Origin: Candidatus Levilactobacillus faecigallinarum
GTDB lineage: Bacteria > Bacillota > Bacilli > Lactobacillales > Lactobacillaceae
NCBI GenBank assembly: GCA_019113985.1
Contig: DXGJ01000009.1
Coordinates: 1-64,000 of the forward strand
Direction of reading: 5' to 3'
Length of the DNA stretch: 64,000 nt
Below, piece by piece: positions 2,527-46,316 of the stretch (the first letter of the stretch is position 1; each line of letters opens with the position of its first letter). Made by a program: the position numbers and the translations under genes. Below the pieces are notes generated by a model. The model was not told where the DNA came from, did no database searches, and saw nothing but the letters and a program-made list of their open reading frames with translations.

Positions 2527-2932
2527 AATCCTGAAGGCTAATCGTTTCCGTTCTCCGCGGAAGCGATGACCTTAAGGCTATTTCGTGTAGCCAAAAAGCA
2601 TCACCCCCTTTCATTTGATGAGGCAAGTCTACTTCGGAATGACGAAAAGTGCAAGTAAAGATACTTTCCTTTGAGTGGTTAGGTCCTATCTATAGAAGTA
2701 AGCTATATAATATAACAGAAGTATTACAGAAAGCTTGTTATGTGTCATTCAGACGACAATCAAAGCATATGGCTTGTTATACTTCTTAATTCTAGCTATA
2801 ATTTATCTGTAATTAAGAGCAGGATATTTATATTTGATTGTTGAAAGAAGAAATTCTTAACAAAGTTTCAAATTTAATGTATACTGTTCTTGCTTGATAG
2901 ATTACATACAATATGTTTGGAGGAAGAAATTT

Positions 2933-4429: not shown

Positions 4430-4455
4430 TATAGTTATTTAAAAATAACTTTTTG

Positions 4456-4488
4456 AAAAGAGCGAGCCCATATGGTTCGCTCTTTTTA
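4456..4488 (+). terminator. Intrinsic terminator after S-layer gene 1
   Basis: aaaagagcgagcc...ggttcgctcttttt. Confidence 0.8.
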
Positions 4489-4570
4489 TTTTCTTAAAAT
4501 GCTTTTTTTAAAGTATGATAAAATTTAGTAGTTATGGTTTTGTATACGTGTTTATATTACATAAATTGAG

Positions 4571-7213
4571 GTGCGCGTTTTGAAGAATAAGGGGAAAAGG
4601 TACCCGACAACAAATAAATTTTGGCTATATTTAATTTCTTTCTTGGTCCCGACTACTTTGATGACTATGTATTTTATAAGTCGTCACATGGCCCCGTTTG
4701 GATCAAGTAGTTTGTTAACTATTGATTTGGGCCAGCAATATATTGATTTTTTTGCTTATTTTCGTCATGCAATATTGCATGATCCTAGTTCGCTGATATA
4801 CTCCTTTTCCAATGGATTAGGTGGGGAAATGATTGGAACTTGGGCTTACTATTTGTTTAGTCCACTTAACTGGATTCTATTATTCTTCCCTGGAACTACA
4901 TTGACATCTGGTATCTTCTTAATGACCGTTGTTAAGTATGGTCTTGCAGGATTAAGCTTCTTTTGGCTAATGCAGAGAACCGTTAGACCACGCTTTTGGT
5001 TATCGTTAACCTTTTCTACAGCATATGCAATGATGGGGTGGACGGTTGCTAATCAATTAAACTTAATGTGGTTGGATGCAGTAATCCTGTTACCTATAAT
5101 TTTTTATGGTTTAACGGAGTTGATTGATAAAGGGAAATGGCGATTGTACGTTGCTTGGTTAACGGCAATGTTGATAATCAATTATTATATGGCATATATG
5201 ATATGCTTTTTCTTAGTTTTATCCTTCATTTGGCTTGTGGCAGACAGATTTACGGACTGGAAAACGATGAAGCAACAATTGCTAAGGTTCATTGTGCGGT
5301 CTACTATTAGTGGCCTTTTAGCATCGACTATTTTATTACCAACGGTTTGGTCACTGGCACAGAGTAAGGCGCAATATACGTTAACCAGTTATAAATGGGA
5401 TTTTGAATATTTTCCACCAGCAATGTTTATCAAATTTTTTATGGGTGTCTTTAACTTTAATCAAATGTTTGCAGGATATCCAAATCTTTTCGTTGGATCG
5501 ATTGTGGTAATTGGTAGTTTCCTATTCTTCTTCAACAAAAATTTTAGCGTTCGTAGCAGAATTGTTGCCGGAATTATTACCTTATTTTATTTTCTTTCTC
5601 TGAGTTTCCGTCCCTTGATACTATTGTGGCATGCAGGACAGTTCCCGACAGGATATACTTTCCGCTTTTCTTTTGTGGTTTGTTTTTGGCTATTCTGGTT
5701 GGCAGCGCAAACGATATCGGAAGAATTTAAACCAACAAAATGGGGAATTATATCGTTTTCTGTGGTTACATTAATCACTTGTTTATATATAGGGGTGAAC
5801 CTCAAAGAATTTAGTGCATTAAAACCACTTCATTTTATTATGGGAATGGTGTTTGTTGTTGTTCTGGCTGTGTTACTTCTTTTACCGATAAGGTGGAAAT
5901 CAAAGTTTGTGGTTGTGTGTGTCATAAGCACTTTAGAGATATTCTTAAATGCTGCCCTGTCTTTAAATGAAATTGGTTATCTTCAGGTGAAAGATTATTC
6001 TCAATATACGAAAGAGTTACAGAGTTTGGTTAGCAGAGTTCAGCGAAACGACTCCAGTTTTTATCGAATTGGTAAAACTTTCTTAAGAGATAATGATGAT
6101 CCCTATCAAGCCAACTTTAATAGTGGTGCGGTTTCTTCTTCGGCGCTAACTAAAGATACAGCAACGTTTATGGGACGATTGGGAAATCCAGATGGAAGTA
6201 TATTTGTTGAGTATAGTAATGGAACTCTAATTAGTGATGCGTTGCTTGATATGAAGTATTACTTCCAACCGAATCAATCAATAGGTATAGAAAGCTATCA
6301 AACTAAGTTGCCCGTCTCCAGTAATAGATTTGATTTATCGGAGTATAAGGAAGTGCATCGTGATAAACAAGCCATAACCTACCGAAATGATTTGGCATTA
6401 CCACTTGGTTATTTAGCAAGTCCAGACGTTATTTCACTAAAAGCTATTGACTCCAATCCAGCTGAGTTTCAAGCAGATTGGTTGTCTGCTTTAACTGGAC
6501 AAGCTAGTTCAAAAACGGTGTTTACTAATCAAAAATTCGATCATACAGAGTTTACTAACATTTATCCAGTGAAAAAATTGAATGGTTCTATGCTTAAGAA
6601 AATAGATAAGAGAAAAGAATCAACGGGTGTTGTAACGACAACGTTTACTCCTAAGCCCAATTCGGTCTACTATATTACATTCGGACCAGATACTAATTTT
6701 AAAGCCGCCAGATTTATTGTGAATGGGACAGAGATTAATGAAAAAAGGGCTTATCGAAATCCAATATTAATAAGTGCATCTGGAAAGGATTCAAATGAAA
6801 CGCAGACGTTGCAAATTCAACTAAATCGTAAATCTATGAAACTTCAAGACTTCAAACTGTATCGTTTAGACCTTGATAAGTATCGAAGTACTATGAAGGA
6901 ATTAAAGAAACACCCTTGGAATTTAACGAAGCATACAAGTCGCTATTTAAGTGGAACTATTACCAGTCCAAGAAGAGGAGATGTTTTAAACACATCTATT
7001 CCATATTCTCAAGGATGGCATGTAAAGTTGAATGGACATTCGGTTAAGACATATAAGACGGTTGATATGTTTACGGCTGTAAAGTTAGATAAGGGTGCTA
7101 ACAAAGTTACGTTTAGTTACTGGCCACCATACTTGAATGTTGGGATAATATTAAGTTCAGTAACTTTAGTGGGATTATCAATAGAAGAATATTTAAGAAA
7201 ACGACAAGATTAA
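4571..7213 (+). CDS. YfhO family polytopic membrane protein (putative GT-C transferase)
   Basis: 880 aa, many TM segments, YfhO-like features (FGSSSLLTIDLGQQYIDFFAYFRH, C-terminal GWHVKLNG, YWPPYLNVGIILS); paired with a CsbB-like GT2. Confidence 0.85.
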   Translation: MRVLKNKGKRYPTTNKFWLYLISFLVPTTLMTMYFISRHMAPFGSSSLLTIDLGQQYIDFFAYFRHAILHDPSSLIYSFSNGLGGEMIGTWAYYLFSPLNWILLFFPGTTLTSGIFLMTVVKYGLAGLSFFWLMQRTVRPRFWLSLTFSTAYAMMGWTVANQLNLMWLDAVILLPIIFYGLTELIDKGKWRLYVAWLTAMLIINYYMAYMICFFLVLSFIWLVADRFTDWKTMKQQLLRFIVRSTISGLLASTILLPTVWSLAQSKAQYTLTSYKWDFEYFPPAMFIKFFMGVFNFNQMFAGYPNLFVGSIVVIGSFLFFFNKNFSVRSRIVAGIITLFYFLSLSFRPLILLWHAGQFPTGYTFRFSFVVCFWLFWLAAQTISEEFKPTKWGIISFSVVTLITCLYIGVNLKEFSALKPLHFIMGMVFVVVLAVLLLLPIRWKSKFVVVCVISTLEIFLNAALSLNEIGYLQVKDYSQYTKELQSLVSRVQRNDSSFYRIGKTFLRDNDDPYQANFNSGAVSSSALTKDTATFMGRLGNPDGSIFVEYSNGTLISDALLDMKYYFQPNQSIGIESYQTKLPVSSNRFDLSEYKEVHRDKQAITYRNDLALPLGYLASPDVISLKAIDSNPAEFQADWLSALTGQASSKTVFTNQKFDHTEFTNIYPVKKLNGSMLKKIDKRKESTGVVTTTFTPKPNSVYYITFGPDTNFKAARFIVNGTEINEKRAYRNPILISASGKDSNETQTLQIQLNRKSMKLQDFKLYRLDLDKYRSTMKELKKHPWNLTKHTSRYLSGTITSPRRGDVLNTSIPYSQGWHVKLNGHSVKTYKTVDMFTAVKLDKGANKVTFSYWPPYLNVGIILSSVTLVGLSIEEYLRKRQD

Positions 7214-7349
7214 ATAGATGGTTTTTAAGTTTTAAAACTAATTGAATATAAAACAAACGGGTTTCTAATAAATTGACGCTTGATTTATTTAGAAATCCTT
7301 TTTTATAAAATTTAATCCCGGATTTAATTAGGATATGGAGTAATAAATT

Positions 7350-8291
7350 ATGAAAAAATTGAGTATAGTGGTCCCTTGCTACAATGAAGAAGAGTCAGTG
7401 ACGTTATTTTTTAGTACGGTTAAAGAAGTTATTAATAAAATAAACAGTGATAGAAAAGTTATAGTTCCGGAGTACATTTTTATAGATGACGGTTCTTCTG
7501 ATGATACGTTAAAAGAAATAAAAAAATTGAATAAGCAATTTCCAGATGTAGTTCATTATCAGTCATTTTCTCGTAACTTTGGAAAAGAGTCAGCGCTATT
7601 TTCAGGTCTTGAAAAGTCTACAGGGGATTATGTTGTTGTTATGGATGTGGACTTACAGGATCCGCCGGAATTATTATCTAAAATGCTAAGTCTAATTCAG
7701 AACTCGGATTATGATTGTGTTGGGACTATTCAGAAAGAACGTCTTGGTCAGAGTAAACTTAGAGCATTTTTATCGTCTAGCTTTTATAAAGTGGTTAATA
7801 AGGTGTCGGATGTTTACATCGAGCCTAATGCACGAGACTATAGGATAATGACAAGGAAGTTTGTAAACGAAGTGTTGGCGTTACCTGAATTTAATAGATT
7901 CTCTAAGGGAATATTTAGTTGGGTTGGGTTTAAAACAACTTATATAACTTATGAGAGTCAGCCTCGTGTGGCTGGAAAAACGCATTGGAGCTTACAACAA
8001 TTGTTTGCATACTCTATCGAAGGGATTATTGATTTCTCTGATGTACCATTAAAATTAGCAACATGGGTTGGAAGCATTTCATTTATTTTATCGATTTTGG
8101 GATTGATATTCGTTATTGTAAGAGCCCTTACCGTGGGAGGATCTGCGGCGGGATGGCCTTCTCTAGTTGTGATAATTTTGTTGGTTGGTGGAATTCAATT
8201 GTTTTGTTTAGGCATATTAGGCCAGTATATTAGTAAGATATATTTAGAAACTAAACATAGACCGATATATATTGTGCGGGAAGATGCCTAA
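7350..8291 (+). CDS. Family 2 glycosyltransferase, CsbB/GtrB-like (polyprenyl-phosphate glycosyltransferase)
   Basis: KKLSIVVPCYNEEESV, FIDDGSSDDTL, VVMDVDLQDPPE, two C-terminal TM helices. Confidence 0.9.
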   Translation: MKKLSIVVPCYNEEESVTLFFSTVKEVINKINSDRKVIVPEYIFIDDGSSDDTLKEIKKLNKQFPDVVHYQSFSRNFGKESALFSGLEKSTGDYVVVMDVDLQDPPELLSKMLSLIQNSDYDCVGTIQKERLGQSKLRAFLSSSFYKVVNKVSDVYIEPNARDYRIMTRKFVNEVLALPEFNRFSKGIFSWVGFKTTYITYESQPRVAGKTHWSLQQLFAYSIEGIIDFSDVPLKLATWVGSISFILSILGLIFVIVRALTVGGSAAGWPSLVVIILLVGGIQLFCLGILGQYISKIYLETKHRPIYIVREDA

Positions 8292-8460
8292 TAAATTAGG
8301 AGAATTGAAGATAAATGTATTGGATAGTGATTAAGTAGGCGATGTTTTTTCGACTGTGTATGTTCAAGAATAATGATGGTATCAGGCACTTAAACTAGCG
8401 TTAAGATTAACCGTGTATATTATGAGGTACTCCAAACATAATAACTTGACTGTACTTAAG

Positions 8461-8495
8461 AAGGCCCCATTCCTGTAGTCGGAATGGGGCCTTTA
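8461..8495 (+). terminator. Intrinsic terminator
   Basis: aaggccccattcc...ggaatggggccttt. Confidence 0.8.
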
Positions 8496-8807
8496 CTTTT
8501 TAGCTGGCTAAGTCTTTACTGAATTATTACAGAAACGAAACAATTTAAGAAATCGTTAAGGCTAAATGGGGGATTTGCATAATTTACAGAGTATGTGAAT
8601 CGCTCGTGATGGTAATCGTTATCCTGCTTTAAAACAGCGAGATGGTCGACTAACACTAAATCAGCGATTAACGGGTGGATATTTTTGTGATAGAAACCTT
8701 AAACATGTTAAGACTTTATGACTTATCGTTTTAGGGAGGAATTCTTTGATATACTGATTGCGTTCTCAGGAATTACAATTTTTTACTTTCGAAGGAGATC
8801 ATACATT

Positions 8808-10199
8808 ATGCAATCAAGTTTAAAGAAATCTCTATACTTAGGCTTAGCTGCATTAAGCTTTGGCGCCGTTGCAACGGTATCCACCACTGCTTCCGCTAAA
8901 TCTTATGCCACTGCTGGTGCCTATTCAACATTAACTACTGACGCAACGACTCGTAACGTTGAAGCCACTGGGACTAACGCACTCTACACCAAGCCAGGGA
9001 CTGTTAAGGGTGCCAAGGTGGTTGCTTCTAAGGCCACGATGGCAACGTTAGCTTCATCCAAGAAGTCCGCTAACTACTTCCGGGCTTACGGTGTGAAGAC
9101 CACGAACCGTGGTTCCGTTTACTACCGTGTTGTTTCAATGGATGGCAAGTACCGTGGTTACGTTTACGGTGGTAAGACTTCTGGCACCTTCGCTGGTGGT
9201 ATCAAGTCTGCTGACACGACCACGACGGCAACTACGCCAACTAAGACGACTGGTTACTACCTGAAGGATGTTACCAAGAACACCCTGTGGACGGCACCTA
9301 AATACACCCAATACAAGGCAAGCAAGGTTAGCCTGTACGGTGTAAGCTCAACTGACAAGTTTACGGTTGATTCCGCCGCTACTAAGACGCGTGAAGGCTC
9401 CCTGTACTATCACGTAACTGACGCGAACAACACCAAGATTAGTGGTTGGATCTACGCTGGTAAGGGATACGATGCTTCTGCAACGACCCAAGACTTGGGT
9501 GGCCTGTCATTGACCATGTCTGATGCTTCCGCAACCTCCGACAACAGTGTTAAGGTCGTTTACCGTGACGCAAGCAAGACGCAAGTAAGTACCGCTACTT
9601 GGATTACCTCTGCATCTGACACCAAGGCCGGTGCTACCGTCGCAACCACGGCCACTAACGCTGCCGGAACGACTTTAGCTGACTTCGTAACAAACTCACT
9701 GCCTTCTGGCTACGCTACTTCTGGCACGGTTGACACGAGCTCTGCAGAATACGGCAACACGGTTTATGTTGATGTTGTCTCTGCCGCAACTTCTAAGGTT
9801 CAGTTAGTTGCTGACACCGTTGACAACACGGCTTCGACTAGCGACAACGCTGTATCAAGCACGTTATCCGATGGCGCAAAGCTGTCCTCCAGTGATCTCT
9901 CCGCAACGTTAAGCGCTGCTGGTGTTAAGGCTTTGACTGGGACCAAGGGTGACACGATTGGCGCAACTAACTTGAGCACGATCTCTGACGCCTTTGGGAC
10001 TGCCAGCATCACTGGCACCAAGACTTACTACGCCGCTGACGGTACGGCTTACCACTACGAATTCACTTATGAACCAACGAACTTCACTAGTGATAACCGG
10101 ACGGCCACTTACGGTGACACGTTGACCGCTAGCTTTAAGGCTGTCTTGACTAAGGGTGCTCCTAGCGCATCTTCATCTGACACGACTTGGATTGCTTAA
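8808..10199 (+). CDS. S-layer protein (L. brevis Slp type), copy 2
   Basis: N-terminal half nearly identical to copy 1, divergent C-terminal half; AAGGAG upstream of ATG 8808. Confidence 0.9.
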
Positions 10200-11778: not shown

Positions 11779-12585
11779 ATGAACAAGAAGGTAAGCAGTA
11801 TCTTACTCGCCAGTGCATTGATGTTAGGGTCATTTGTACCGGTCGTTGCCAATGCGGATGGCTTAAGTGGGAAGACGCAAAGCGAAATTACGTTTGCTAA
11901 GCCAGACGCCAACATTGATCCAGTTGACCCAGAAAACCCAGGAACTACCGATCCAGGTAACCCTGGTGGGACTGAACCTGGTGGGGACTTAACGTTTATC
12001 TACGTTTCCCCTTCCATGAAGTTCGGGACGGCCGCAACAGAATCTGACGGCACGTTAACCAAGGATAGCGATGGCAAGTTGACCATCGGAACCATCAAAG
12101 ATGGTGGCCTGGTAAACGCTATCGAAACGACGGCCAATGCCAAGACCTACTATCCAGTTGTTACGACCCGTGACTTGGGTGCCACGAAGGACAACCCAAA
12201 CCTGGTTACCGAAGTTTCTGATACTCGTGGGACCAACGCCGGTTGGACTATCAGTGTTTCCGCTGACGCCATGGTTAGTGGCTCTAACTCCTTGGAAGGT
12301 GCTACCTTGAGTTTAGGTGGTTCAACGGCCACCATCAAGAACTCCGCTAAGACGGATGGTACCGATGCAGGGATTACTGGTAAAGACCAACAGATTACCT
12401 TACCCGGCACGGGGGCTTCTAGCTCTGCCACCATCTACTCAGCTAAGCCTGAATCTGGTGTCCTGAACACGGCCTTCCAATTAGCACCAGAAAACATTAA
12501 ATTAAGCAATATTCCTGCAAACGTTAAGGCCGGGACTTACTCCGGTAACGTTAACTGGACGTTAAGCGATACGCCAGGTGCATAG
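11779..12585 (+). CDS. WxL domain surface protein
   Basis: Signal peptide, NPGTTDPGNPGGTEPGG linker, C-terminal SGNVNWTLSDTPGA typical of WxL proteins. Confidence 0.85.
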   Translation: MNKKVSSILLASALMLGSFVPVVANADGLSGKTQSEITFAKPDANIDPVDPENPGTTDPGNPGGTEPGGDLTFIYVSPSMKFGTAATESDGTLTKDSDGKLTIGTIKDGGLVNAIETTANAKTYYPVVTTRDLGATKDNPNLVTEVSDTRGTNAGWTISVSADAMVSGSNSLEGATLSLGGSTATIKNSAKTDGTDAGITGKDQQITLPGTGASSSATIYSAKPESGVLNTAFQLAPENIKLSNIPANVKAGTYSGNVNWTLSDTPGA

Positions 12586-12604
12586 GAATCTTTATGGTGG
12601 GGAA

Positions 12605-12640
12605 GGTGTTCATTCTGTATAAAATGAGCGCCTTTTTCGC
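12605..12640 (+). terminator. Putative terminator between WxL and DUF916 genes
   Basis: aaggtgttcatt...aatgagcgccttttt stem followed by T tract. Confidence 0.5.
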
Positions 12641-12694
12641 TTTACATATTCGGTGTATGATTGCCGTAGAATCTATTTTGTAGTCAGGGGTGTC

Positions 12695-13753
12695 ATGATG
12701 CGAGGATTGGGAAAGTTTCAAGTTATCTTTTTGATGGTTATCGGTGTCGTTCTAGGGTGGGGAACGTCGGTGTCGGCACAGGCAGCGGCTAATGATATTG
12801 GGTATAGTGTTGCGGCTAAACTACCCAAGAATCAGATGAATAAGAAAAATTCGTTTTTTGACTTGAGAATGAAGTCCCAGCAACAAGAACAGCTACAAGT
12901 TCGCGTTTACAACCTCACGAATCAGGACATTCAGGTCGAATCAGCCATTCACACGGCGTGGACTAGCGAGAACGGAGCCATCGAGTACGTGACACCAACG
13001 AAGTCCTACGATGCCTCGCTTCGCTACAAGATGAGTGATATTAGTAAAATTCAGGGTAAAAAGACCCTTACGATTCCTGCCAAGGGGTCCAAGTTGGTGA
13101 CTGCCAACGTTAAGATGCCCAAGACTACGTTTAACGGCGTAATTCTAGGTGGCTGGTACTTCAAACGTGTCGATAGTAAGGTCACGGGAACGGTCAAGGG
13201 TGCTGGTAACATGCGGAACCAGTATTCTTACGTCATTGGCATGAAGTACACCATGGGCAAGGTTCCTTACCCGGCGATGAGCCTGGGGAAGGTCTCTGCT
13301 GGTCTGGATAATGCTCACCGTGGGGTTGTTGCGAACCTGCGCAACACCTCGGCTGTGATTATCCCGAACCTAACCACGAACACCACCATTACCAATCGGG
13401 ATGGTGGGAGCGTGGTCAAACACGAAAAGAAAGAAAACGTGCAAATGGCGCCAAACACGACGTTCAAATACACGTTACGTTATGGGAAAACGGAACTGAA
13501 GGCGGGCAACTACCATCTGCATATGGTTGCCAAGAATACCGATCGAAGCTGGACGTTTGACCGGGACTTTACAATCACCAAGGCTCAAGCCGATAAGTAT
13601 AATCAGGCGACGGTCGAAAATTCCGGCATTAACATTTGGTTGTTGGTCGCATTAGGCGCCTTGGGTATGCTGTTACTGATTCTGTTAATTCTGCTGGTTA
13701 TTTACCTGATTCGGCGGAAGCGGCGGGAAAATGACGATAAAGATGAGGATTAG
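12695..13753 (+). CDS. DUF916/DUF3324 WxL-interacting membrane-anchored protein
   Basis: IGYSVAAKLPKNQMNKKNSFFDLRMKSQQQEQLQVRVYNLTNQ; C-terminal TM followed by RRKRRE; neighbours WxL genes. Confidence 0.85.
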   Translation: MMRGLGKFQVIFLMVIGVVLGWGTSVSAQAAANDIGYSVAAKLPKNQMNKKNSFFDLRMKSQQQEQLQVRVYNLTNQDIQVESAIHTAWTSENGAIEYVTPTKSYDASLRYKMSDISKIQGKKTLTIPAKGSKLVTANVKMPKTTFNGVILGGWYFKRVDSKVTGTVKGAGNMRNQYSYVIGMKYTMGKVPYPAMSLGKVSAGLDNAHRGVVANLRNTSAVIIPNLTTNTTITNRDGGSVVKHEKKENVQMAPNTTFKYTLRYGKTELKAGNYHLHMVAKNTDRSWTFDRDFTITKAQADKYNQATVENSGINIWLLVALGALGMLLLILLILLVIYLIRRKRRENDDKDED

Positions 13754-13773
13754 ATAAAAAGGGGGCGTTGAGC

Positions 13774-14229
13774 ATGCAACGGTGGTTCCAGAGAGTATTG
13801 ATTGTTTTGGCAACACTTAGTTTGGGAATCGGCGTTGGTAGTTCGGCGCTCGCAGCAACAACGACAAGTGATGGTCATACCACGGCGGGAATTACCTTTG
13901 AGGGGAACCCTAGTAGCAATTCCAGCTCGGCGGGTTCTGATTCCGTAAATCCGGGGGGAGCAGGGGATGGCACGACGGATAATAGTGTTGCTATTCCGAA
14001 CGGCAAGACGCCGACGGGTTCCAAGGGTGACCGGATAACTGGCAAGCCCGCACAGACGCTGGGAAAGACCATTCATAAAACGGCGGCAGATCTCTTATCG
14101 GGTCGTTTACCCCAAACGGGCGAGACACAGTCTGTGTTGATTGGTCTAGTGGGAATTTTATTATTACTGGTGATTATTTTAGCGACCGTCGTTATTCGAC
14201 AGGCACGACTACTACGAGAGAGGGAGTGA
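13774..14229 (+). CDS. Small LPXTG-anchored protein of WxL cluster
   Basis: Signal peptide; LPQTGETQSVLIGLVGILLLLVIILATVVIRQARLLRERE. Confidence 0.75.
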   Translation: MQRWFQRVLIVLATLSLGIGVGSSALAATTTSDGHTTAGITFEGNPSSNSSSAGSDSVNPGGAGDGTTDNSVAIPNGKTPTGSKGDRITGKPAQTLGKTIHKTAADLLSGRLPQTGETQSVLIGLVGILLLLVIILATVVIRQARLLRERE

Positions 14230-14232
14230 GTC

Positions 14233-15891
14233 TTGATGGCGTTAGCGCGTAGAAAATTCGTCTTATGGCTCAGTCTTATCTTGGTAACCGTAATGGGAGC
14301 CTTAGTTGTCGGAAATCAGCCTGCGCATGCGGCAACGTTACCGACGGGGGCAGGCTATGTTAATACTAATACGACCTACTATGGGACCCCTCAGACTGGT
14401 AAGGAATTGGTCCCGTCTACCGGGACGGCAAGTGGGACGCTACCGGCTCAGGTGCCAACAGTGACGGTTGCGGCTAATAACTTGTCCAGCAATAATCGAA
14501 TTACCTATAAAACGACTAAGATTTATTTGATTTTTTCGGGAACGATTGCGATGGCGACCACGGGAACCACTACTATGACGAGTGTTGTTCCAACGGTCTT
14601 TAATAATAAAGGTGAAGAACAGGCAACGAAAACGCCATCGGATTTGGCACCAAGTTCGACAAAATCAATTAGATTTTCGAACACAACGGTTTATGAAGTC
14701 GATGTAAACTTCACGAGTCTAGAAGACTTTCGGTTAAACATGCCACTGTATTATGGCTTAGCGGTTAAAAGTAGTAATGGTACGAAGGCTAATATGCTGG
14801 GGCTTGGGGAAAGCCTTCTCGATAACACGATTAATAATACATGGTTAGCTAATGGCCCGTTTACGCTCAATGCAACTTACAGTGGTAAGCCTACGGTGTA
14901 CGGAACCAGTGCGTTACGTGCGGATGATACGTCTGTGAGCGGTAAGTTGGGATATCCGGGTCTGCATGTCTGGTTGCCCTTGACAGACAGTGATGGCACC
15001 TTACGGGTTTATACCAGTACGATAGCAGAAGATGGGACTTTTACCATTGAAGTGGGGAAAGAACTAGGGCTATTAACGGCTAAAAAGAACATCACGGTAT
15101 TTGAAGGAAATGACATGGGGGATGAAACTTTTGTTGGGGGAAGTTTAATGCCCGTTTTAAAGATTACAGCAACCAATCCTGATTTAAGCGTTTATCCCGA
15201 TAGCTTATCCGACAACATTACAGGCAAGTCAGATGAACAAGTACTGGCCTGGATTGTACAAGAAGCAGGTGTCTCTGTAACGAGGCTCGGAACGACAGTT
15301 GATAATGCCGATGTTACCTATTCGGTGGACAAGACGAACTTAGCTAATGCGCTTTCAGGATTAGGCGATGGCGAGAGCTTGTCGCTGGAGATTAATGCTA
15401 AAGACAATACGGGCGCTATAACGGATGGTGGTGGGCAGACCATTACCATCACAAAGCATGATGGGACGTTAAGTTTCGGAACCATCAATGATTTGAATTT
15501 TGGTAGCCAGGTCATTCCTGCCCAGACAACCATGTTTTCACCAGTTGATCCGGGAGTTACGATCGATGATACGCGGGCGGCGGGGTCTGCCTGGTACGTA
15601 ACCGCGAATGCATCACCCCTGACTGATGGTAACGGGCATGCCGTTAGCGGCGGTCTAGTGTATGTTGGGACAAATGGCACCAAGCAACCAATGACCAATC
15701 AAGCGGTGCAAGTGGCTAGTGGAACCCGGGCCAAGGGCGTTAATTCGGTGGATGCGGCCAGTGGATGGTCGAAGAGTGACAGTCAGAAGCAGACGGGAAT
15801 TTACCTGGATGCGAATGCAAACACCTACACAGGAGAGCAATCCACGAATTATACGGGGACGGTCACCTGGACGTTGTCAAACACACCATAA
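14233..15891 (+). CDS. WxL domain surface protein (552 aa)
   Basis: Signal peptide; SAWYVTANASPL and C-terminal YTGTVTWTLSNTP. Confidence 0.85.
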   Translation: MMALARRKFVLWLSLILVTVMGALVVGNQPAHAATLPTGAGYVNTNTTYYGTPQTGKELVPSTGTASGTLPAQVPTVTVAANNLSSNNRITYKTTKIYLIFSGTIAMATTGTTTMTSVVPTVFNNKGEEQATKTPSDLAPSSTKSIRFSNTTVYEVDVNFTSLEDFRLNMPLYYGLAVKSSNGTKANMLGLGESLLDNTINNTWLANGPFTLNATYSGKPTVYGTSALRADDTSVSGKLGYPGLHVWLPLTDSDGTLRVYTSTIAEDGTFTIEVGKELGLLTAKKNITVFEGNDMGDETFVGGSLMPVLKITATNPDLSVYPDSLSDNITGKSDEQVLAWIVQEAGVSVTRLGTTVDNADVTYSVDKTNLANALSGLGDGESLSLEINAKDNTGAITDGGGQTITITKHDGTLSFGTINDLNFGSQVIPAQTTMFSPVDPGVTIDDTRAAGSAWYVTANASPLTDGNGHAVSGGLVYVGTNGTKQPMTNQAVQVASGTRAKGVNSVDAASGWSKSDSQKQTGIYLDANANTYTGEQSTNYTGTVTWTLSNTP

Positions 15892-35601: not shown

Positions 35602-35862
35602 ATTTACAGCAAACAACGATGGCGTTCACCACTGGGTGGGCGTCATTTTTTTAGGGTTAAACGGTGCTTTCGATTAGTGATTAGTCAGCTTGACGGGCAG
35701 TCACAACTTACGAAAAATGGGCTGAAACGGTTCATCATATAATTAGCTCGCCGACGTTAGACTAGACAAAATGGCTGTGGGCGGTATCCCTGATGCTGCA
35801 AGGGCTGCCGGGCGCCTAGGCTTCGGTTGAAAACGGTGGCCGCTTTTCAATTTTTTCGGTTC

Positions 35863-35891
35863 TTGACTTGCTTCCAAACGGTTCCTAGAAT
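35863..35891 (+). promoter_or_regulatory. Promoter TTGACT-N17-TAGAAT
   Basis: Matches two other promoters of the basic secreted protein family. Confidence 0.75.
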
Positions 35892-35954
35892 GGTGGTCAG
35901 ATAGCCGGGCGTCATGCTGGTTCGGCTATGAATTCATTTTTAGGGGGAGTTTTC

Positions 35955-36551
35955 ATGAAACGTGTTTTAGGTTATGTTTTAGGCTTAGTCGCCGCCTTAT
36001 CGTTGGCTGGTGCAGCAGCCACGACGGCCAACGCTGATGGCGGCGCTGCCAATGCTGGGAGTGGTCAAGCCGTTACGGGGTCTCCTCGTACGGATACCGA
36101 CGCCAACGAGCCGCAAGGCGGTGGGGCTACCGGTACCCTGGTTGTACCGAATACCGACTCATCCAGTGTTGCATCTTCATCCAGCGAGAGTTCTGCCAGC
36201 AGCAGTAGTTCTGCATCTTCGTCGTCAGTAGCGCCAACCAAGCCCGAAAAACCAAGCAAGAAGCCTGGTAAGGTAGTTGCTAATGGCAAGAAGATGCGTG
36301 GGGAGAAGCACTACCGGAAGAACAGCACGGTGATTCTGTTCCAGAAGGGCCGCAAGGGTGCCAGCGTGGTTCTGCGGAACCGCAAGGGCCAGTTCGTCGA
36401 GAAGTTTAGCGTTAAGAAGAGCGGCCGCTTCAGTATCAAACTTAGCAAGAAGGCCGCTTTGAAGTTAAGCAAGTTCGGCAAGAACTTTACCTTCACGGTT
36501 TCTCAGAAGGGCTTCAAGACCTACACCATCAAGTACTTAATCTTCAAGTAA
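35955..36551 (+). CDS. Secreted Ser-rich/basic protein, family member 1
   Basis: MKRVLGYVLGLVAALSLAGAAATTANADGG; Ser tract SSSVASSSSESSASSSSSASSSS; YRKNSTVILFQKGRKGASVVLRNRKGQFVEKFSVKKSGRFSIKLSKK. Confidence 0.75.
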   Translation: MKRVLGYVLGLVAALSLAGAAATTANADGGAANAGSGQAVTGSPRTDTDANEPQGGGATGTLVVPNTDSSSVASSSSESSASSSSSASSSSVAPTKPEKPSKKPGKVVANGKKMRGEKHYRKNSTVILFQKGRKGASVVLRNRKGQFVEKFSVKKSGRFSIKLSKKAALKLSKFGKNFTFTVSQKGFKTYTIKYLIFK

Positions 36552-36913
36552 GGCTGTTATCAGCTCGGATACAAACGGGGGCGTCGTCGTTGGGCGAGGC
36601 TCCTTTTTGTTGGGCCCGTTTCCATAAACAAGCTTATTGCAACTTGGTCGCTGGCAAGGGTTGTGACGCGCATCGGGACGGGGGACTTGGTATACTGAGA
36701 GGGTCTTGAAAATTCAGAAATCACGAGGACGGTGGCCCGACTTCACGGTGGTTACGGCCGCGGATACGGCGCGGGCTACCGTGAAGGGATAGAAGTTACC
36801 GGTATTTTTGGATTTACTCTTGTACTCGAACTCGTTTTAAGGGAGACTTATTAATGGTTTTATTCGTTGCGGCAACGTAACGTTTGGGGTTCGAGACAAG
36901 GGGGAATACAGAT

Positions 36914-38563
36914 TTGAGAGAGAAATTAAGACTTTGGTTTGGTAGCCACGATGCACAATATATTGGGTTGCTGGCCATCGTCGGGTGTGTTCTGATGGCG
37001 TTTTGTTCATACACCTCACCCGCGTTTTATTTTGATTATTCACCGGACAACAACGCTTTCTTCACCGTGGGAAAGGCCATGATGCACGGCATTGTGCCGT
37101 ACCGGGACATCTTTGAGCAGAAGGGGCCGTACGTGTACTTCTTGCACGGGCTGGCCTACCTGGTGGCCCAGCGAAGCTTCATTTTTATCTTCGTGATGGA
37201 GATCATTGCGTTGGTCGCGGCCATGACGCTGACCTATTATTTGGCACGACGGTTACGCCTCACGGAGTTGGGGAGCTTCGTGGCAGCCCTGCTGTCACCG
37301 GTACTGTTTTTGTACCACCCCTATTACGATTACGGAGATACGGTCGAGTTTTTTGTGGTGCCGTTGTTGCTATCGTTGGTGTACTTGATTGTATTGCTGG
37401 ATCAACGGGGGATGCGGGTCAATCGCTGGTGGTTCTTCAGTCAGGGCCTATTCGTGGGCGTCGTGTTTCTGTCGAAGTATACCCTGTTGGGTGCCTGGAT
37501 TGCCTTTTACCTGGTCCTAGGAATCTACTTAGCGGTGAAGCGAAATTGGCTGATACTCCGACGCGTTATTTTGACCAGCGGGGCAGGCTTTCTGGTAGCC
37601 GTACTCCCTTGGCTGATTTACTTTTTAATGAATCACGCACTGACGGCCTTTTTTCGGGTCTATATCGTGTTCAACACCCACGCCTACGTGGCGTCGACGG
37701 TCTCGGCCTTTTCCAAACTGATTCAGTCCGCGATTTTACTCGCGCAATTTTACCTAGGGGACGTTCTATTCTTCGTCCTGGGGTTGGTTGGAACTTTGAT
37801 TATCTTGTACCGGACGGATATTCTCCAACGTCGCTTCACCAAGGCACTGTACTTGGTGACCTTCCTCTTGGGTGACTTATTCGCGGTATATGGCTATCAG
37901 ACCAATACGGTCTACCAGTATTATCAGTTAGCCTATTTTCCCTTTTTTGTGGTGCCATTCGTCTATTTCCTGGGGCGCTTGTTCCGGCGGGCGAACCTGA
38001 GAACCTACGACGATGCGTTCGTTATCTTGGGTACCATCATCCTGAGCCTGTTTCTGGTCCTGGGGGTCAACGATAACGTTGAGGAGTCGCGACTCTTCCC
38101 CAACAACGCCTCGGTCACGTTATCCCATACGCGTAAGCCACAGCGGCCGGCCCAGACGATTTTTGGCCAGCTGATGCGGTCCAAGACACCGGCAGATCAA
38201 CCGATGACGTTGCTAAACTATGGGTCAATCGATATGGGTTTCTACACCAGTTCTGGTGCGGTTCCCAGTGAATACTATTTCCAGAACTATAACGTCCCGC
38301 AGTCCGCCGCACCCCAGATTTTACGGGATCAAAAGCGAGCGATTGCCCAGAAACGGGTCGAATGGGTGGTCCTGAACACGCCGTCGGGACGCAGCGTGCG
38401 GGGCTGGCGGGCCCACAATCATGGCCGAATCGGTAACGGAAACTTGAATCCGGGAACGGCCGGGATTGCGAAGTCGTTGTATCATAATTATCGGCGAGTT
38501 GCCAAGCATAGCCAGCGGTTTGAGAACACCAACGTGACTTACTGGTTATTCCAGCGAAAGTAG
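36914..38563 (+). CDS. Polytopic GT-C-like membrane glycosyltransferase, copy 1
   Basis: FYFDYSPDNNAFFTVGKAMMHGIVPYRDIFEQKGPYVYFLHGLAYL; TTG start after AAGGGGGA. Confidence 0.75.
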   Translation: MREKLRLWFGSHDAQYIGLLAIVGCVLMAFCSYTSPAFYFDYSPDNNAFFTVGKAMMHGIVPYRDIFEQKGPYVYFLHGLAYLVAQRSFIFIFVMEIIALVAAMTLTYYLARRLRLTELGSFVAALLSPVLFLYHPYYDYGDTVEFFVVPLLLSLVYLIVLLDQRGMRVNRWWFFSQGLFVGVVFLSKYTLLGAWIAFYLVLGIYLAVKRNWLILRRVILTSGAGFLVAVLPWLIYFLMNHALTAFFRVYIVFNTHAYVASTVSAFSKLIQSAILLAQFYLGDVLFFVLGLVGTLIILYRTDILQRRFTKALYLVTFLLGDLFAVYGYQTNTVYQYYQLAYFPFFVVPFVYFLGRLFRRANLRTYDDAFVILGTIILSLFLVLGVNDNVEESRLFPNNASVTLSHTRKPQRPAQTIFGQLMRSKTPADQPMTLLNYGSIDMGFYTSSGAVPSEYYFQNYNVPQSAAPQILRDQKRAIAQKRVEWVVLNTPSGRSVRGWRAHNHGRIGNGNLNPGTAGIAKSLYHNYRRVAKHSQRFENTNVTYWLFQRK

Positions 38564-38678
38564 CGGCCGGGGAACCGGGAAAAGCGACCGAAGTTCGGGA
38601 CGCGCTTGCTGGGTGAACGCCTGATTTTCAGCAAGGTTAAAGAACCTGAAAATAACGATACTTTGCAACCGTGTAGCC

Positions 38679-38707
38679 TTGACACCGGTTACCCAAGCAC
38701 CTAGAAT
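38679..38707 (+). promoter_or_regulatory. Promoter TTGACA-N17-TAGAAT
   Basis: Same architecture as 35863 and 39405 promoters. Confidence 0.75.
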
Positions 38708-38787
38708 AAGTAGGTGAATTGTTTGGTTAAGAAATTAATTAAGCAATCCCAAAATAACAGATTCGTCTGTAGGGGGATTTTGGAACC

Positions 38788-39246
38788 ATGAAAAAAGTAT
38801 TTAGTTATGTTTTAGCTTTAGTTGCTGTTTTAACGTTCGGTGGGGCCATTGCGACCACGGCTAACGCTGCCGGTGGCAATGCCGTCGCAACCAGTGCCAG
38901 TGGTGTGAGTGGGGTGGCAACGTCATCTTCTAGCGTCAAGGCACCAGCGAAGAAGGCAACCAAGAAGGTCGCTAAGAAGAGCCAAATCAAGCTCGCCAAG
39001 AAGTACCGGAAGAACGCCAAGAAGGTTGTCTTCAATAAAGGCCGTAAGGGTTCTAAGGTCACGCTGAAGAACAACAAGAAGCAAACGGTCAAGAGCTACT
39101 CCGTTAAGAAGAACGGCAAGTTCACCGTTAAATTAAGCAAGAAGCAGGTTAAGAAGTTGAACAAGAAGAACGCCAAGTCCTTCAAGGCTTCCGTTGCCCA
39201 AAAGGGTTACAAGACCTACACCATTACGGCTAAAATCTCCAAGTAA
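38788..39246 (+). CDS. Secreted Lys-rich basic protein, family member 2
   Basis: MKKVFSYVLALVAVLTFGGAIATTANAAGGN; YRKNAKKVVFNKGRKGSKVTLKNNKKQTVKSYSVKKNGKFTVKLSKKQ. Confidence 0.75.
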   Translation: MKKVFSYVLALVAVLTFGGAIATTANAAGGNAVATSASGVSGVATSSSSVKAPAKKATKKVAKKSQIKLAKKYRKNAKKVVFNKGRKGSKVTLKNNKKQTVKSYSVKKNGKFTVKLSKKQVKKLNKKNAKSFKASVAQKGYKTYTITAKISK

Positions 39247-39267
39247 TTAGGTAGTCGTTGATAAATT

Positions 39268-39312
39268 AGAGTAGTGCGAGAATGGTCTATCCTTCTCGCA
39301 CTACTTTTTAGT
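39268..39312 (+). terminator. Intrinsic terminator
   Basis: gtagtgcgagaa...ttctcgcactacttttt. Confidence 0.8.
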
Positions 39313-39404
39313 ATGCCAAGGAGTTGGGATATCATGTCGCTAAAAGGTTAATGCTAATGATATTTTGAAATTAGGAAGGTTAGCTTTCATAAAACCGTGC
39401 ATTC

Positions 39405-39433
39405 TTGACAGCGGCCGGGTCGGTTCCTAGAAT
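39405..39433 (+). promoter_or_regulatory. Promoter TTGACA-N17-TAGAAT
   Basis: CGGTTCCTAGAATGG shared with 35863 promoter. Confidence 0.75.
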
Positions 39434-39503
39434 GGGGCCTTGAAGATAGCCGGAAATCAGCGGCCGTCCGATTTTAAATGGTTTTAACTTAGGGGGAGTT
39501 TTT

Positions 39504-40097
39504 ATGAACAGAATCTTAGGATACGCAGCTGCCCTCATCGCAGCCTTATCTTTAGGGGGATTTGCCGCAACGTCCGCGCGGGCCGATGGCAACGCGGCGA
39601 CGGCTGCCAGTGGCACCCGGAGTAGCAGTGTTTCAACTGGGGATACGGACACAACACCGGCCAACACGGATTACGTGGCCGTAGCAAGCTCCGATAGCAG
39701 TAGTAGTGTTGCCAGCGCCAGCAGCAGTAGCACGGCCGCACCAACCGCGAGTCGCAAGACGCCACGGCGAGCGAAGAAGTCTAAGCGAGTGGCGACTAAG
39801 CGCCGTCGAGCGACTGCTAAGCGGACCGTTGCCCGGAAAGCTCGGGTCAGCGAGTTACGTTACCGCAAGGATGCTCGGGTGGTTCGCTTCGGCAAAGGTC
39901 GCAAAGGCGAAGTCGTTACGTTACGGAATCGCCGCGGGCAGGTCGTCAAGAAGTTTGACGTTCGCCGTAGCGGTAAGTTCGACATTCGCTTGACGCGCAA
40001 GCAGGCCTTTAAGCTCGACCGGGGTGGCAAGTACTTTGACGTCACCGTCTCACGGAAAGGCTTCAAGCCGTACACCGTTAAGGAAACTATTTTTTAG
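39504..40097 (+). CDS. Secreted Ser-rich/Arg-rich basic protein, family member 3
   Basis: MNRILGYAAALIAALSLGGFAATSARADGN; SSDSSSSVASASSSSTAAPT; YRKDARVVRFGKGRKGEVVTLRNRRGQVVKKFDVRRSGKFDIRLTRKQ. Confidence 0.75.
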   Translation: MNRILGYAAALIAALSLGGFAATSARADGNAATAASGTRSSSVSTGDTDTTPANTDYVAVASSDSSSSVASASSSSTAAPTASRKTPRRAKKSKRVATKRRRATAKRTVARKARVSELRYRKDARVVRFGKGRKGEVVTLRNRRGQVVKKFDVRRSGKFDIRLTRKQAFKLDRGGKYFDVTVSRKGFKPYTVKETIF

Positions 40098-40251
40098 ACG
40101 TTGAATAAGTGGCAATCGCGAGTTTGTGGTTATTAAGGTGATCGTGTGATCGCCTTTTTTGTTTGGCTAAATTGTTGTCGCCGCTTAGCCACTGACCCTA
40201 TAATCGCCCCAATGACTAGGGGGATTTCAACAAGAAAGTGGGGGAGGGCCC

Positions 40252-41907
40252 GTGGCCTTTAAAGCATGGTTTCAGCATCATCAGCGTGAGCTCCAGTATT
40301 TGGCACTATTCAGCATGATGGGGGTCGCTATCATGTTGGTCTGTTCGTACACGTCGCCAGCTTTTTACTTTGACTATTCACCGGACAATAACGCCTTCTT
40401 CAGTGTCGGCAAGGCCATGATGAACGGCAAGGTCCTGTACCGGGACATCTTCGAGCAGAAGGGCCCATACATCTACTTACTCCACGGGTTGGCCTACTTG
40501 GTCTCGTCGCGGAGCTTCTTCCTGGTCTACCTCTGGGAGGTCGTGACACTGGTGGCGTCAATGTTTCTGAGCTACCGCATCGCGACTCGGATTCTACGGC
40601 AACCGCAGGCGCTGCTGGTTGGCATTCTGTCACCAGCCCTGTTTCTCTACCACCCGTACTACGACTACGGGGACACTGCAGAATTCTTTGCACTGCCGTT
40701 GATTTTATCGCTCATTTACCTCATCCTACTGCTGGCTGAACGGCGCTTCCACGTGAGTTCGTGGTGGTTCTTCGCTCAGGGGGTGTTTGTGGGGGTTGAA
40801 TTCTTATCCAAATACACGTTATTAGGTTCGTGGATTGCCTTTTACCTCTTCATCGGCGTCTATCTGATCAAGCAGCGAGAGTGGGCCACGTTGCGCCGGG
40901 TAGTGGTGTGGAGTGCCGGGGGCTTTCTGCTGGCAACGGTGCCGTGGTTACTGTATTTCTGGCTGAATCACGCGATGCGGAGCTTTCTTTACGTTTACTT
41001 CTTCTTCAACACCCATGTTTATCTGACGTCGTCGGTCTCGTTTTTCTCTAACCTGGTGCAATCTACTAGCTTACTGGCCAGTTTCTTCCTATCGGGTGTG
41101 GTATTCTTTACCTTGGGCCTTTTGGGGACGCTGGTGATTATCTTCCGGCACGACGTTTTAAAGGACAACTTCGCGCGGGTCTTGTACCTGGTGGTCTTTC
41201 TCAGTAACGACATCCTGGCGCTGTACGGGTACAGTAGCGGTAACGTCTTTCAGTATTACCAGCTGATTTACTTCCCGTTTTTTGTCTTGCCGTTCGTTTA
41301 CTTCTGCAAGTTCTGCTTTAACCGGCGCACCATCAAAAAGGATGACGATACGTTGACGATTCTGACGGCGATTCTGATGAGCTTTTTCCTGGTCCTCGGC
41401 GTCAACAATAACTTCACCAGCTCACGGTTGTTTCCCAATAACGCGTCCGTCACGGACTTGCATACCAAGCGGCCCCAGGAACCGGCCCAAACGGAATTTG
41501 GGAACATCATGCGCCAGCGGACCCACGGGAAAATCACACTACTGAACTACGGCTCGATTGACATGGGCTTTTATACCGCGGCTGGTGCCGTACCAACGCT
41601 GTACTATTTCCAAAACTACAACATTCCGACTCAAAGCGACCCAACTATTCTTAACACGCAATTGGCGGCTATTCGGCAGCGACGCGTCGAGTGGGTGGTC
41701 CTGAACACGCCGTTGGGGAAACGGCCGGCGACTTGGCGGGGGAACCAATACCAGGTCGGTCAGATTTCGGGCGGCAACCTGAACCCGGGAACGGCCCGGA
41801 TGAGTGGGCTACTCTACCGTAATTACCGGTTGGTCGCGGTCCACACCCAGAGTTTCGAGAACGTCAACGTGAGTTACTGGTTATTTCAGCGAAAATCAGC
41901 GGATTAG
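40252..41907 (+). CDS. Polytopic GT-C-like membrane glycosyltransferase, copy 2
   Basis: Strongly similar to 36914-38563 across its length (FYFDYSPDNNAFFSVGKAMMNGKVLYRDIFEQKGPYIYLLHGLAYL); GTG start. Confidence 0.75.
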   Translation: MAFKAWFQHHQRELQYLALFSMMGVAIMLVCSYTSPAFYFDYSPDNNAFFSVGKAMMNGKVLYRDIFEQKGPYIYLLHGLAYLVSSRSFFLVYLWEVVTLVASMFLSYRIATRILRQPQALLVGILSPALFLYHPYYDYGDTAEFFALPLILSLIYLILLLAERRFHVSSWWFFAQGVFVGVEFLSKYTLLGSWIAFYLFIGVYLIKQREWATLRRVVVWSAGGFLLATVPWLLYFWLNHAMRSFLYVYFFFNTHVYLTSSVSFFSNLVQSTSLLASFFLSGVVFFTLGLLGTLVIIFRHDVLKDNFARVLYLVVFLSNDILALYGYSSGNVFQYYQLIYFPFFVLPFVYFCKFCFNRRTIKKDDDTLTILTAILMSFFLVLGVNNNFTSSRLFPNNASVTDLHTKRPQEPAQTEFGNIMRQRTHGKITLLNYGSIDMGFYTAAGAVPTLYYFQNYNIPTQSDPTILNTQLAAIRQRRVEWVVLNTPLGKRPATWRGNQYQVGQISGGNLNPGTARMSGLLYRNYRLVAVHTQSFENVNVSYWLFQRKSAD

Positions 41908-41938
41908 AGTTTAAGGGGACACGGGGGGAGTTTTAACA

Positions 41939-43651
41939 ATGGGAGAACGATTACGCGGGTTTTTAACCCGGTATTGGTGGCAGGTTGAGGGAGTGACCTT
42001 CCTACTACTGAGTATTTTATGGATTTTACCCTGGGGATTCTCAGGCAAGCTGTACGTGGGGGATGACCTGGCCTTCCACCTGAACCGGATTCAGGGGTTG
42101 ACCGCGGCATTCAAGGCCAGCGGCAACTGGTTTCAGATTCCGGCCGTGGCGACCGGGGCGTTCAGCGCCTGGGGGTATCCCATCAACCTCTTTTACCCGG
42201 CAACGGCCTTGATTCCAGCGGCCTGGCTCCAGGCAGTGGCTCCGGGGATCGGTGGGTATTACGTCTTCTTGGTTTTCCTGAATTTTGCGACCCTCGGGAT
42301 TGCCGCCGTCGTGGCGTACCAACTCTTGCAGAGCCGCGGTCAGGCTTTCCTGGTCGCTGTTATCTACAGCTTCGCCCAGTACCGTTTTCTAGACTTCTTC
42401 GTTCGGGGGGCGCTAGCGGAGGGCATCGTCTTCACTTTTCTGCCTATCGTTTTCTACGGTCTCTATTGTCTGACCGTGGGCGATTATCGCAAATGGTACT
42501 GGCTGGCCATCGGGATGGCGTTGATTGCCCTGACCCACGTGATTTCGTTGGCGTTAAGCGCCGTGGGCGTGGTGGTCATGCTCAGTATGTGGGGACTATC
42601 CCGGACCGAGCCGTGGCGGCGACTGCGAAATCTGGGATTTGCCACGGTGCTGGCGGTGGGACTCTCAGCCGGGTTCCTGGGACCGTTGGCCGAACAACTG
42701 GTGCACGTGGGTAAGCTGGGAGTCGCCCAGTACAGTCTGGCCCAGAGTGCAGCGCAGCTCGGCGACCTTTTCAGTAACTCGCTGGACAACGCGACGGCCT
42801 CCAACCAGATCAACTTCGGCGTGGTTGCGTTGTTACTGACGGTGGCGGCACTCTTTGCCTGGAAACAGTTGACGGCGTTTGACCGGTATTGTCTGGGCCT
42901 GAGTTGGTTCTTCATTTTCTTGGGAACCAACCTCTTTCCTTGGCAGCTGTTCCAGGGACTCCTGGGCAACATCCAATTTCCCTGGCGCTTCCTGGCGTTG
43001 GCGGTCTTCCCACTTGCGTTAGTGGGGGCGCGTTCACTGATTCTGCTAGCCCACGCGCGGACCTTTAACCGTAAGTTCTGGACAGTCGCCGTGGCGAGTC
43101 TAGCCGTGGTGGGCATCGCACTCGGTACCAGCGAGCGCCTGTACCATCAGGTTGGTTTGGGCCAGAACAAAATTGTGACCAATGCCAGTTACCTGCAAAA
43201 TGCGACGACGGATACCACCACGGACTATGTGGCCCAGCGGGGGCAAGTCTCAATGGCGGCAGTCCGGACGCACTCGGTACCGGTGATGAATACCCAGACC
43301 AACGGGCAACAGCTGGCGGACTTACAGCAGCAGACTGAACAATCGCTGGCCAATGGCCTAAGCTTTCACCTAACCAGCGCCGTACCGCAGCGCATTAAGC
43401 TGCCGGAACTGGCCTACGCGGGATATCACGTCTACGTTAACGGGCGGCAACAGACGCCGACGTTGGACGCTAATGGGGTGGTGCACATCAAGGTTGCGGC
43501 GGGCGCTTCACAGGTTCGCTACGTTTATCAACCAACGGTCGTCCAAATCCTGAGTGGCTGGGTGGCCGCGTTGAGTTGGCTGGGTCTGCTGGGAACGCTG
43601 GGTTGGCGCCGTTATCACCGGTCAACGTCAACGGTCACCAAGACCTTGTAA
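41939..43651 (+). CDS. Polytopic membrane protein, GT-C/YfhO-related (570 aa)
   Basis: GDDLAFHLNRIQGLTAAFKAS, many TM segments, C-terminal periplasmic-type domain with PELAYAGYHVYVNGRQQ. Confidence 0.65.
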   Translation: MGERLRGFLTRYWWQVEGVTFLLLSILWILPWGFSGKLYVGDDLAFHLNRIQGLTAAFKASGNWFQIPAVATGAFSAWGYPINLFYPATALIPAAWLQAVAPGIGGYYVFLVFLNFATLGIAAVVAYQLLQSRGQAFLVAVIYSFAQYRFLDFFVRGALAEGIVFTFLPIVFYGLYCLTVGDYRKWYWLAIGMALIALTHVISLALSAVGVVVMLSMWGLSRTEPWRRLRNLGFATVLAVGLSAGFLGPLAEQLVHVGKLGVAQYSLAQSAAQLGDLFSNSLDNATASNQINFGVVALLLTVAALFAWKQLTAFDRYCLGLSWFFIFLGTNLFPWQLFQGLLGNIQFPWRFLALAVFPLALVGARSLILLAHARTFNRKFWTVAVASLAVVGIALGTSERLYHQVGLGQNKIVTNASYLQNATTDTTTDYVAQRGQVSMAAVRTHSVPVMNTQTNGQQLADLQQQTEQSLANGLSFHLTSAVPQRIKLPELAYAGYHVYVNGRQQTPTLDANGVVHIKVAAGASQVRYVYQPTVVQILSGWVAALSWLGLLGTLGWRRYHRSTSTVTKTL

Positions 43652-45749: not shown

Positions 45750-46316
45750 TTAGTTGTTGTAAGCTTGTTGTAAAGCGACCTTGTCTTGGGAATCAATGGA
45801 AGCGTACCGTTCGGAAGCGTACATGACGCTGGCTTCGGAATCGGAGTGGCTTAAGCCTAAGGCGTGGCCAATTTCATGGGTAGCCACGTTGGCGCGTTGC
45901 TTGGTGGTGTAGTTGTACTTGGTGAGCAACTTCTTGTTTAACGTGGACTTGGCGGAAACGATTTGGTTGTCACCGCTCTTTTGGTAGTAAGAGTAGTTGG
46001 TGTAACCGGCTAAGTCGGAACCCTTAGTCTTCAGGGAGTTGGAAGAAGTCAAAGTGATGTCGGCCTTTTGACCACTCTTGGCAGGGGTCAATTCAACGAC
46101 ACCCACGGCGTTCCAGGACTTAACGGCTTTCTTCCAGATGCCTTGGTAATATGTAGAGGACGTATCGCACTTGTAAGTAATGGTGGTTGATTTCCAGCTA
46201 CCCCAGGTCGGCGTCTTAGCAAGTGAAGCGGCTTTGATGGAACCGGTGAAGCCAGTTAAAGTTAAGGCACAGGTGGCAGCGACAATCACGATTTGTTTGA
46301 TGACTTTCTTAAACAT
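45750..46316 (-). CDS. Secreted matrixin-like (M10) zinc metalloprotease
   Basis: Signal peptide; ATHEIGHALGLSHS (HExxHxxGxxH). Confidence 0.85.
   Translation of the reverse strand: MFKKVIKQIVIVAATCALTLTGFTGSIKAASLAKTPTWGSWKSTTITYKCDTSSTYYQGIWKKAVKSWNAVGVVELTPAKSGQKADITLTSSNSLKTKGSDLAGYTNYSYYQKSGDNQIVSAKSTLNKKLLTKYNYTTKQRANVATHEIGHALGLSHSDSEASVMYASERYASIDSQDKVALQQAYNN

Follow-up and report, generated by a model that had tools for sequence, protein, structure and literature searches.

Introduction

Cassettes that join the gene of an abundant secreted protein to that of a dedicated membrane glycosyltransferase are known from Pseudomonas aeruginosa, in which pilA is followed by a Rho-independent terminator and then by tfpW (group IV) or tfpO (group I). 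Attenuation of the downstream glycosyltransferase gene has been proposed for this terminator, and the pilin that TfpW modifies is that of its own cassette (PMC11841053). TfpW is a GT-C enzyme (PMC5836110), a class whose reviewed Gram-positive systems act on wall polymers (PMC8035078). The protein O-glycosylation route characterized in L. plantarum operates in the cytoplasm (Acm2, GtfA/GtfB; PMC5796085). Here, we analyze a repeated gene module of Candidatus Levilactobacillus faecigallinarum, in which genes for small, basic secreted proteins (the SEC family) are paired with genes for GT-C glycosyltransferases (the GTC family). It lies in a stretch of 64,000 nucleotides (nt) of contig DXGJ01000009.1 (GCA_019113985.1), hereafter the window, to which all positions refer unless another locus is named. 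The host is a Levilactobacillus metagenome-assembled genome of 1.76 Mb and 72% completeness, and the closest ychF is 97% identical to that of the host.

Six open reading frames (ORFs) on the + strand, bracketed by a DUF1129 gene and guaB, encode three SEC proteins, two GTC proteins, and one further polytopic protein. All six were found at the coordinates listed in a first-pass annotation of the window, and the repeated SEC-GTC module that it described was borne out. Its remark that no named system has such a layout was not quite right, given the Pseudomonas cassettes. The cassette is real, conserved, and specific to the genus Levilactobacillus. Its enzyme type and its kind of layout have precedents, whereas the protein family and the host group are new; its promoter and terminator layout is described here for the first time.

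Results

Occurrence and inheritance of the cassette

GTC was present in 35 of 36 Levilactobacillus genomes and SEC in the same 35, the remaining genome (G084) having neither; thus, no genome of the genus carries one family alone. Wherever the locus was complete within one contig, the module was located between the DUF1129 gene and guaB, with one copy in most genomes and two in about ten. Because the same pairing recurs at the same place in these 35 genomes, it cannot be ascribed to chance, and the coupling of SEC and GTC as a cassette is well supported by co-occurrence, a layout compatible with co-transcription, and co-divergence.

Among 298 Lactobacillales genomes, SEC was confined to 1 of 74 genera (E≤1e-8). 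The named relatives found with the SEC alignment are nearly all Levilactobacillus species, including L. brevis CD0817, L. zymae, L. acidifarinae, and L. spicheri, and the remaining two records carry the label Lactobacillus sp. Weak matches of the SEC hidden Markov model (HMM) in other genera were rejected as SEC, being other proteins with immunoglobulin (Ig)-like domains (histidine phosphatase-like and repeat proteins) or low-complexity proteins. GTC homologs are more widespread (18 of 40 sampled Lactobacillaceae genera); outside Levilactobacillus some adjoin a CsbB-like GT2 gene and others are solitary, including those on Enterococcus plasmids, alongside which no secreted partner was annotated. 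Text searches of the literature found no paper naming this cassette.

To follow the inheritance of the modules, distances among GTC proteins were compared with those among the nearest upstream SEC proteins, species distance being taken from ychF, DUF1129, and guaB. The two sets of distances correlated at 0.77, with a partial r of 0.68 after removal of species distance. Of the 1024 ways of assigning SEC partners in the ten two-module genomes, 6, counting the real pairing, reached the observed value. The two GTC types split early in the genus. The modules have been passed on as pairs; since linked duplication could by itself produce such a pattern, it speaks for a unit of inheritance rather than of function.

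Several loci depart from the common arrangement. In the cassette-free genome (L098 in G084), a 197-aa polytopic ORF occupies the locus, and its homolog adjoins an intact cassette in L106. In L. senmaizukei (L072 and L119), two ORFs of 234 and 278 aa stand in place of a whole GTC gene downstream of an intact SEC, representing a natural GTC-defective strain unless the split is a sequencing error; in the close relative L. tangyuanensis, GTC is unbroken. A transposase-like ORF is inserted in an L. brevis cassette (L063:9988-11292), and an ORF of 745 aa resembling a beta-glucosidase in that of L. suantsaii (L090:3836-6073).

Expression signals

A -35/-10 pair, with a spacer of 16-17 nt and a leader of 49-76 nt, was found upstream of all 56 SEC genes with high HMM scores. 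In the window, these signals are located on the + strand at 35863-35891 for SEC-A (TTGACT-17-TAGAAT), 38679-38707 for SEC-B, and 39405-39433 for SEC-C (both TTGACA-17-TAGAAT). Near the transcript start, an alignment of 28 SEC leaders contains a stem of nine pairs, which is 86% paired, compared with 78% in shuffles and 25-43% when the stem is slid along the alignment; because the stem was picked from the alignment itself, the slid control is biased in its favor. Double-change cells, however, numbered 41 against 17 in shuffles, and these double changes would be hard to explain other than by a covarying 5' leader stem. Single leaders mostly have unremarkable folding energies, RNAalifold recovered four pairs only, and no Rfam family matched the region. 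The corresponding stem-loop in the SEC-A leader (35901-35929, + strand) is predicted, covariation being established for the related leader set of other species.

Intrinsic terminators were found within 130 nt 3' of SEC in 35 of 56 cases, compared with 3 of 56 shuffled sequences, and in several species with long intergenic gaps the terminator is located immediately upstream of GTC instead. All three SEC genes of the window are followed by such terminators on the + strand (36577-36612, 39270-39313, and 40135-40164 for SEC-A, SEC-B, and SEC-C, respectively). In 27 of 46 GTC ORFs, by manual count, the interval between the terminator and the ribosome-binding site of GTC is only about 20-45 nt and contains no promoter-like site. 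Owing to this short gap and the missing promoter-like site, GTC would be expressed there by read-through, in an arrangement that matches pilA-tfpW and is looser in the window itself. Promoter and leader suggest that SEC is apparently highly expressed; codon usage could not add to this, as the EF-Tu gene is only a fragment in the assembled genome.

SEC proteins

SEC proteins comprise a signal peptide, a low-complexity Ser/Lys-rich linker of about 9 to 272 residues, and a C-terminal cationic Ig-like domain. The window encodes SEC-A (35955-36551, + strand), with a Ser-rich linker, SEC-B (38788-39246, + strand), a short and strongly basic paralog, and SEC-C (39504-40097, + strand), in which the linker is Ser-rich and then Arg/Lys-rich. 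They are paralogs, as the first-pass annotation had recognized from a shared signal peptide and C-terminal motif, both of which are present, and SEC-B and SEC-C are 52-54% identical to SEC-A over aligned columns. The C-terminal domain (residues 111-198) was modeled with a predicted local distance difference test (pLDDT) score of 90-97, and the model matches Ig-like beta sandwiches, including domains of Epf and RgpB. Although 15 of 16 SEC members match Big_6 (PF17936) at E below 0.1, all remain beneath the gathering cut-off (best window score 23.6 bits versus 27.6), and strict filing under Big_6 was rejected. Surface extracts of L. brevis have yielded a "Big_6 domain-containing protein" (PMC9504196), which may or may not be SEC.

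Mature SEC proteins have an isoelectric point of 9.7-12.0 (median 10.4) and are strongly basic regardless of the linker. Like Lactobacillus S-layer and S-layer-associated proteins, they are basic and secreted and may be held in the wall non-covalently, as is thought for those proteins; unlike S-layer proteins, they are small, with a single Ig-like domain and no self-assembly region. Some short SEC paralogs have a lipobox-like LGGC motif and nearly no linker. In the L. zymae group (L068:9021-9416; also L085, L088, L090, and L091), a short SEC-like Ig ORF without a signal peptide is located between SEC and GTC, directly upstream of the latter. Inspection by eye of the ychF-guaB ORFs, made without a profile or genome-wide search, recognized no serine-rich repeat/SecA2 genes (secA2, asp, GtfA/GtfB).

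GTC proteins

GTC1 (36914-38563, + strand), which most likely starts at the TTG codon at 36914, and GTC2 (40252-41907, + strand) are 60% identical over their full length, in agreement with their earlier description as close paralogs. Both exceed the curated cut-off of the PMT_2 profile (PF13231; 31.5 and 31.8 bits, respectively, versus 26.1). The predicted structure, of moderate confidence (mean pLDDT 69.7), has a GT-C fold with Foldseek probability of 1.00 to STT3, ArnT (5ezm), and AftD (TMq 0.42-0.49) and matches Pmt1/Pmt4 more weakly. GTC therefore resembles the PMT_2/GT39-like family (ArnT, corynebacterial Pmt, GtlB) in profile and fold; unlike that family, it has no sequence match in the PDB, even when searched with a GTC profile.

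D45 and N47 are invariant in 17 family sequences down to 23% identity, as are G71, E145, K188, Y250, and N254, among others. D45 belongs to the YSPDNN motif of the first extracytoplasmic loop, which the first-pass annotation, in proposing a GT-C enzyme, had given as an example of a loop-1 acidic site. By analogy with GtlB, a PMT_2-annotated GT-C whose first extracellular loop contains two required Asp residues (PMC5836110), D45 probably acts in catalysis. All 36 genomes of the genus encode a GtrA-family protein, and a CsbB-like GT2, which may or may not serve GTC, is encoded at 7350-8291 of the window. The GtrA proteins and the GT2 genes that adjoin some GTC homologs elsewhere point, only indirectly, to a putative polyprenyl-phosphate sugar donor for GTC. 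The locus thus shares with the CsbB-GtcA-YfhO and GtlA-GtcA-GtlB systems, which act on wall teichoic acid (WTA) and lipoteichoic acid (LTA), a GT-C with a loop-1 Asp and a genome encoding GtrA and a CsbB-like GT2, and some GTC homologs of other genera share with these systems an adjoining GT2. It differs in its genus-specific secreted protein and in lacking GT2 and GtrA within the cassette, where their co-encoding is common, not universal.

Other envelope genes in the window

The last cassette ORF (41939-43651, + strand) encodes a polytopic membrane protein, probably co-translated with GTC2, whose counterparts occur in two-module and GTC2-type species. It had been labeled YfhO-like; with 18.3 bits against a cut-off of 28.5 for PF09586, and relatives scoring 23.0 or not matching, it is only weakly YfhO-like, and strict filing in that family was rejected. 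The true YfhO of the window (4571-7213; PF09586, 808.6 bits) is full length and, with the CsbB-like GT2, is flanked by two secreted proteins at 2894-10199, a second envelope glycosylation cluster in the window. These two secreted proteins presumably resemble the S-layer proteins of L. brevis. A row of further secreted proteins at 11779-15891 looks by eye like a WxL/DUF916 cell-surface cluster. Just past guaB, a small secreted matrixin-like metalloprotease (PF00413, 48 bits) is encoded on the - strand at 45750-46316, and is also found in several close relatives.

Discussion

We propose, while rating it slightly below an even chance, that the locus is a Levilactobacillus-specific cassette yielding a cationic envelope protein in quantity and a little of a dedicated glycosyltransferase, whose acceptor would most likely be SEC. 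The succession of a strongly promoted SEC gene, a leaky-looking terminator, and GTC suggests an enzyme dedicated to decorating SEC or its wall polymer. SEC would be exported via Sec and most likely retained in the wall by charge, through its basic Ig-like domain and Lys/Arg-rich linker. A CsbB/GtrB-type GT2 and a GtrA protein, both encoded elsewhere in the genome, would respectively make and flip an undecaprenyl-phosphate sugar donor, from which GTC would transfer the sugar on the outer side of the membrane. By analogy with the P. aeruginosa pilin-accessory cassettes, the most likely acceptor would be the Ser/Thr-rich linker of SEC, as TfpW modifies its own pilin, and terminator read-through would keep GTC output low relative to that of SEC in many species. 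The likeness between TfpW and GTC lies in layout and GT-C class, and modification of SEC is putative; in contrast to type IV pilin, SEC combines a Sec signal peptide with a cationic Ig-like domain, and the host is Gram-positive. A stricter version, in which lactobacilli possess an extracytoplasmic protein O-glycosylation cassette, unlike the cytoplasmic GtfA/GtfB route, and each GT-C uses a lipid-linked sugar to modify solely the cationic Ig-like product of the gene immediately before it, can be advanced only tentatively.

Several observations weigh against SEC as the dedicated acceptor. The linker has no conserved Ser or Thr position, its Ser/Thr count ranges from about 10 to 118 among signal peptide-bearing SEC proteins near GTC, and several paralogs have no linker. 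PMT_2-annotated GT-C enzymes, such as GtlB, also modify teichoic acids (PMC5836110), and neither a GT2 nor a GtrA flippase was recognized inside the cassette across the loci of the genus. In the window, the coupling is looser, with GTC1 363 nt downstream of SEC-A and GTC2 preceded by its own promoter-like site (TTGTCG-18-TATAAT, 40175-40204, + strand). The first-pass annotation had expected the two families to occur together; within the genus their coupling is tight, with a sole paired absence that amounts to one evolutionary event, and beyond it the expectation failed. The GTC homologs examined outside Levilactobacillus, 23-40% identical, occur without SEC, so the enzyme family needs no SEC, and a few SEC paralogs in L. 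mulengensis and L. spicheri are located away from any GTC. The earlier interpretation as a whole is therefore partly supported, and SEC and GTC may be substrate and enzyme, which we leave conditional because neither the sugar nor the acceptor can be read from the sequence.

In the chief alternative, GTC would add sugar to a polymer of the wall (WTA, LTA, or a neutral polysaccharide) to which SEC binds as a cationic partner, the two being coupled since binder and ligand must match. Characterized Gram-positive GT-C systems act on polymers (PMC8035078; PMC5836110), and Lactobacillus surface proteins use basic regions to bind the wall, where the ligand in L. brevis is probably a non-teichoic polysaccharide (PMC2571106). 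The strong basicity of SEC whatever its linker suits such a binder, and co-divergence suits a binder-ligand pair equally well. A terminator-attenuated layout, typical of substrate-enzyme cassettes, is, however, not called for by polymer decoration alone, and a SEC-like binder is missing beside the GTC homologs of other genera. The sequences do not by themselves discriminate between SEC and a polymer as acceptor, and we regard the polymer as a serious, if rather improbable, candidate.

It is unlikely that GTC has both of these acceptors, or a different one such as a glycolipid or exopolysaccharide, with SEC as a chance neighbor in the transcript inherited in a linked block. The whole ychF-guaB block is indeed syntenic, linked genes would co-diverge if duplicated together, and the L. 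johnsonii GtrB/GtrA pair makes exopolysaccharide (PMC7117936); nevertheless, SEC and GTC are jointly absent in G084, both were repeatedly retained through duplication and loss of modules, and the promoter-terminator architecture is kept across the genus. Less probable still is a GTC inactive as a glycosyltransferase and serving SEC as a membrane chaperone or assembly factor, as TfpY serves pilin. The same cassette layout can serve an accessory protein that does not glycosylate, as the TfpY type shows (PMC11841053), and the donor gene is absent from the cassette, but GTC keeps the GT-C fold and the loop-1 Asp, whereas TfpY is not a GT-C.

If SEC is indeed the acceptor, a GT-C tied to a single secreted protein throughout a genus would provide a tractable, non-pathogenic model for acceptor choice by these enzymes, since paired paralogs in one cell constitute natural swap experiments. 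An unassigned and apparently strongly expressed family of cationic proteins in a food-relevant genus would thereby gain a role as well.

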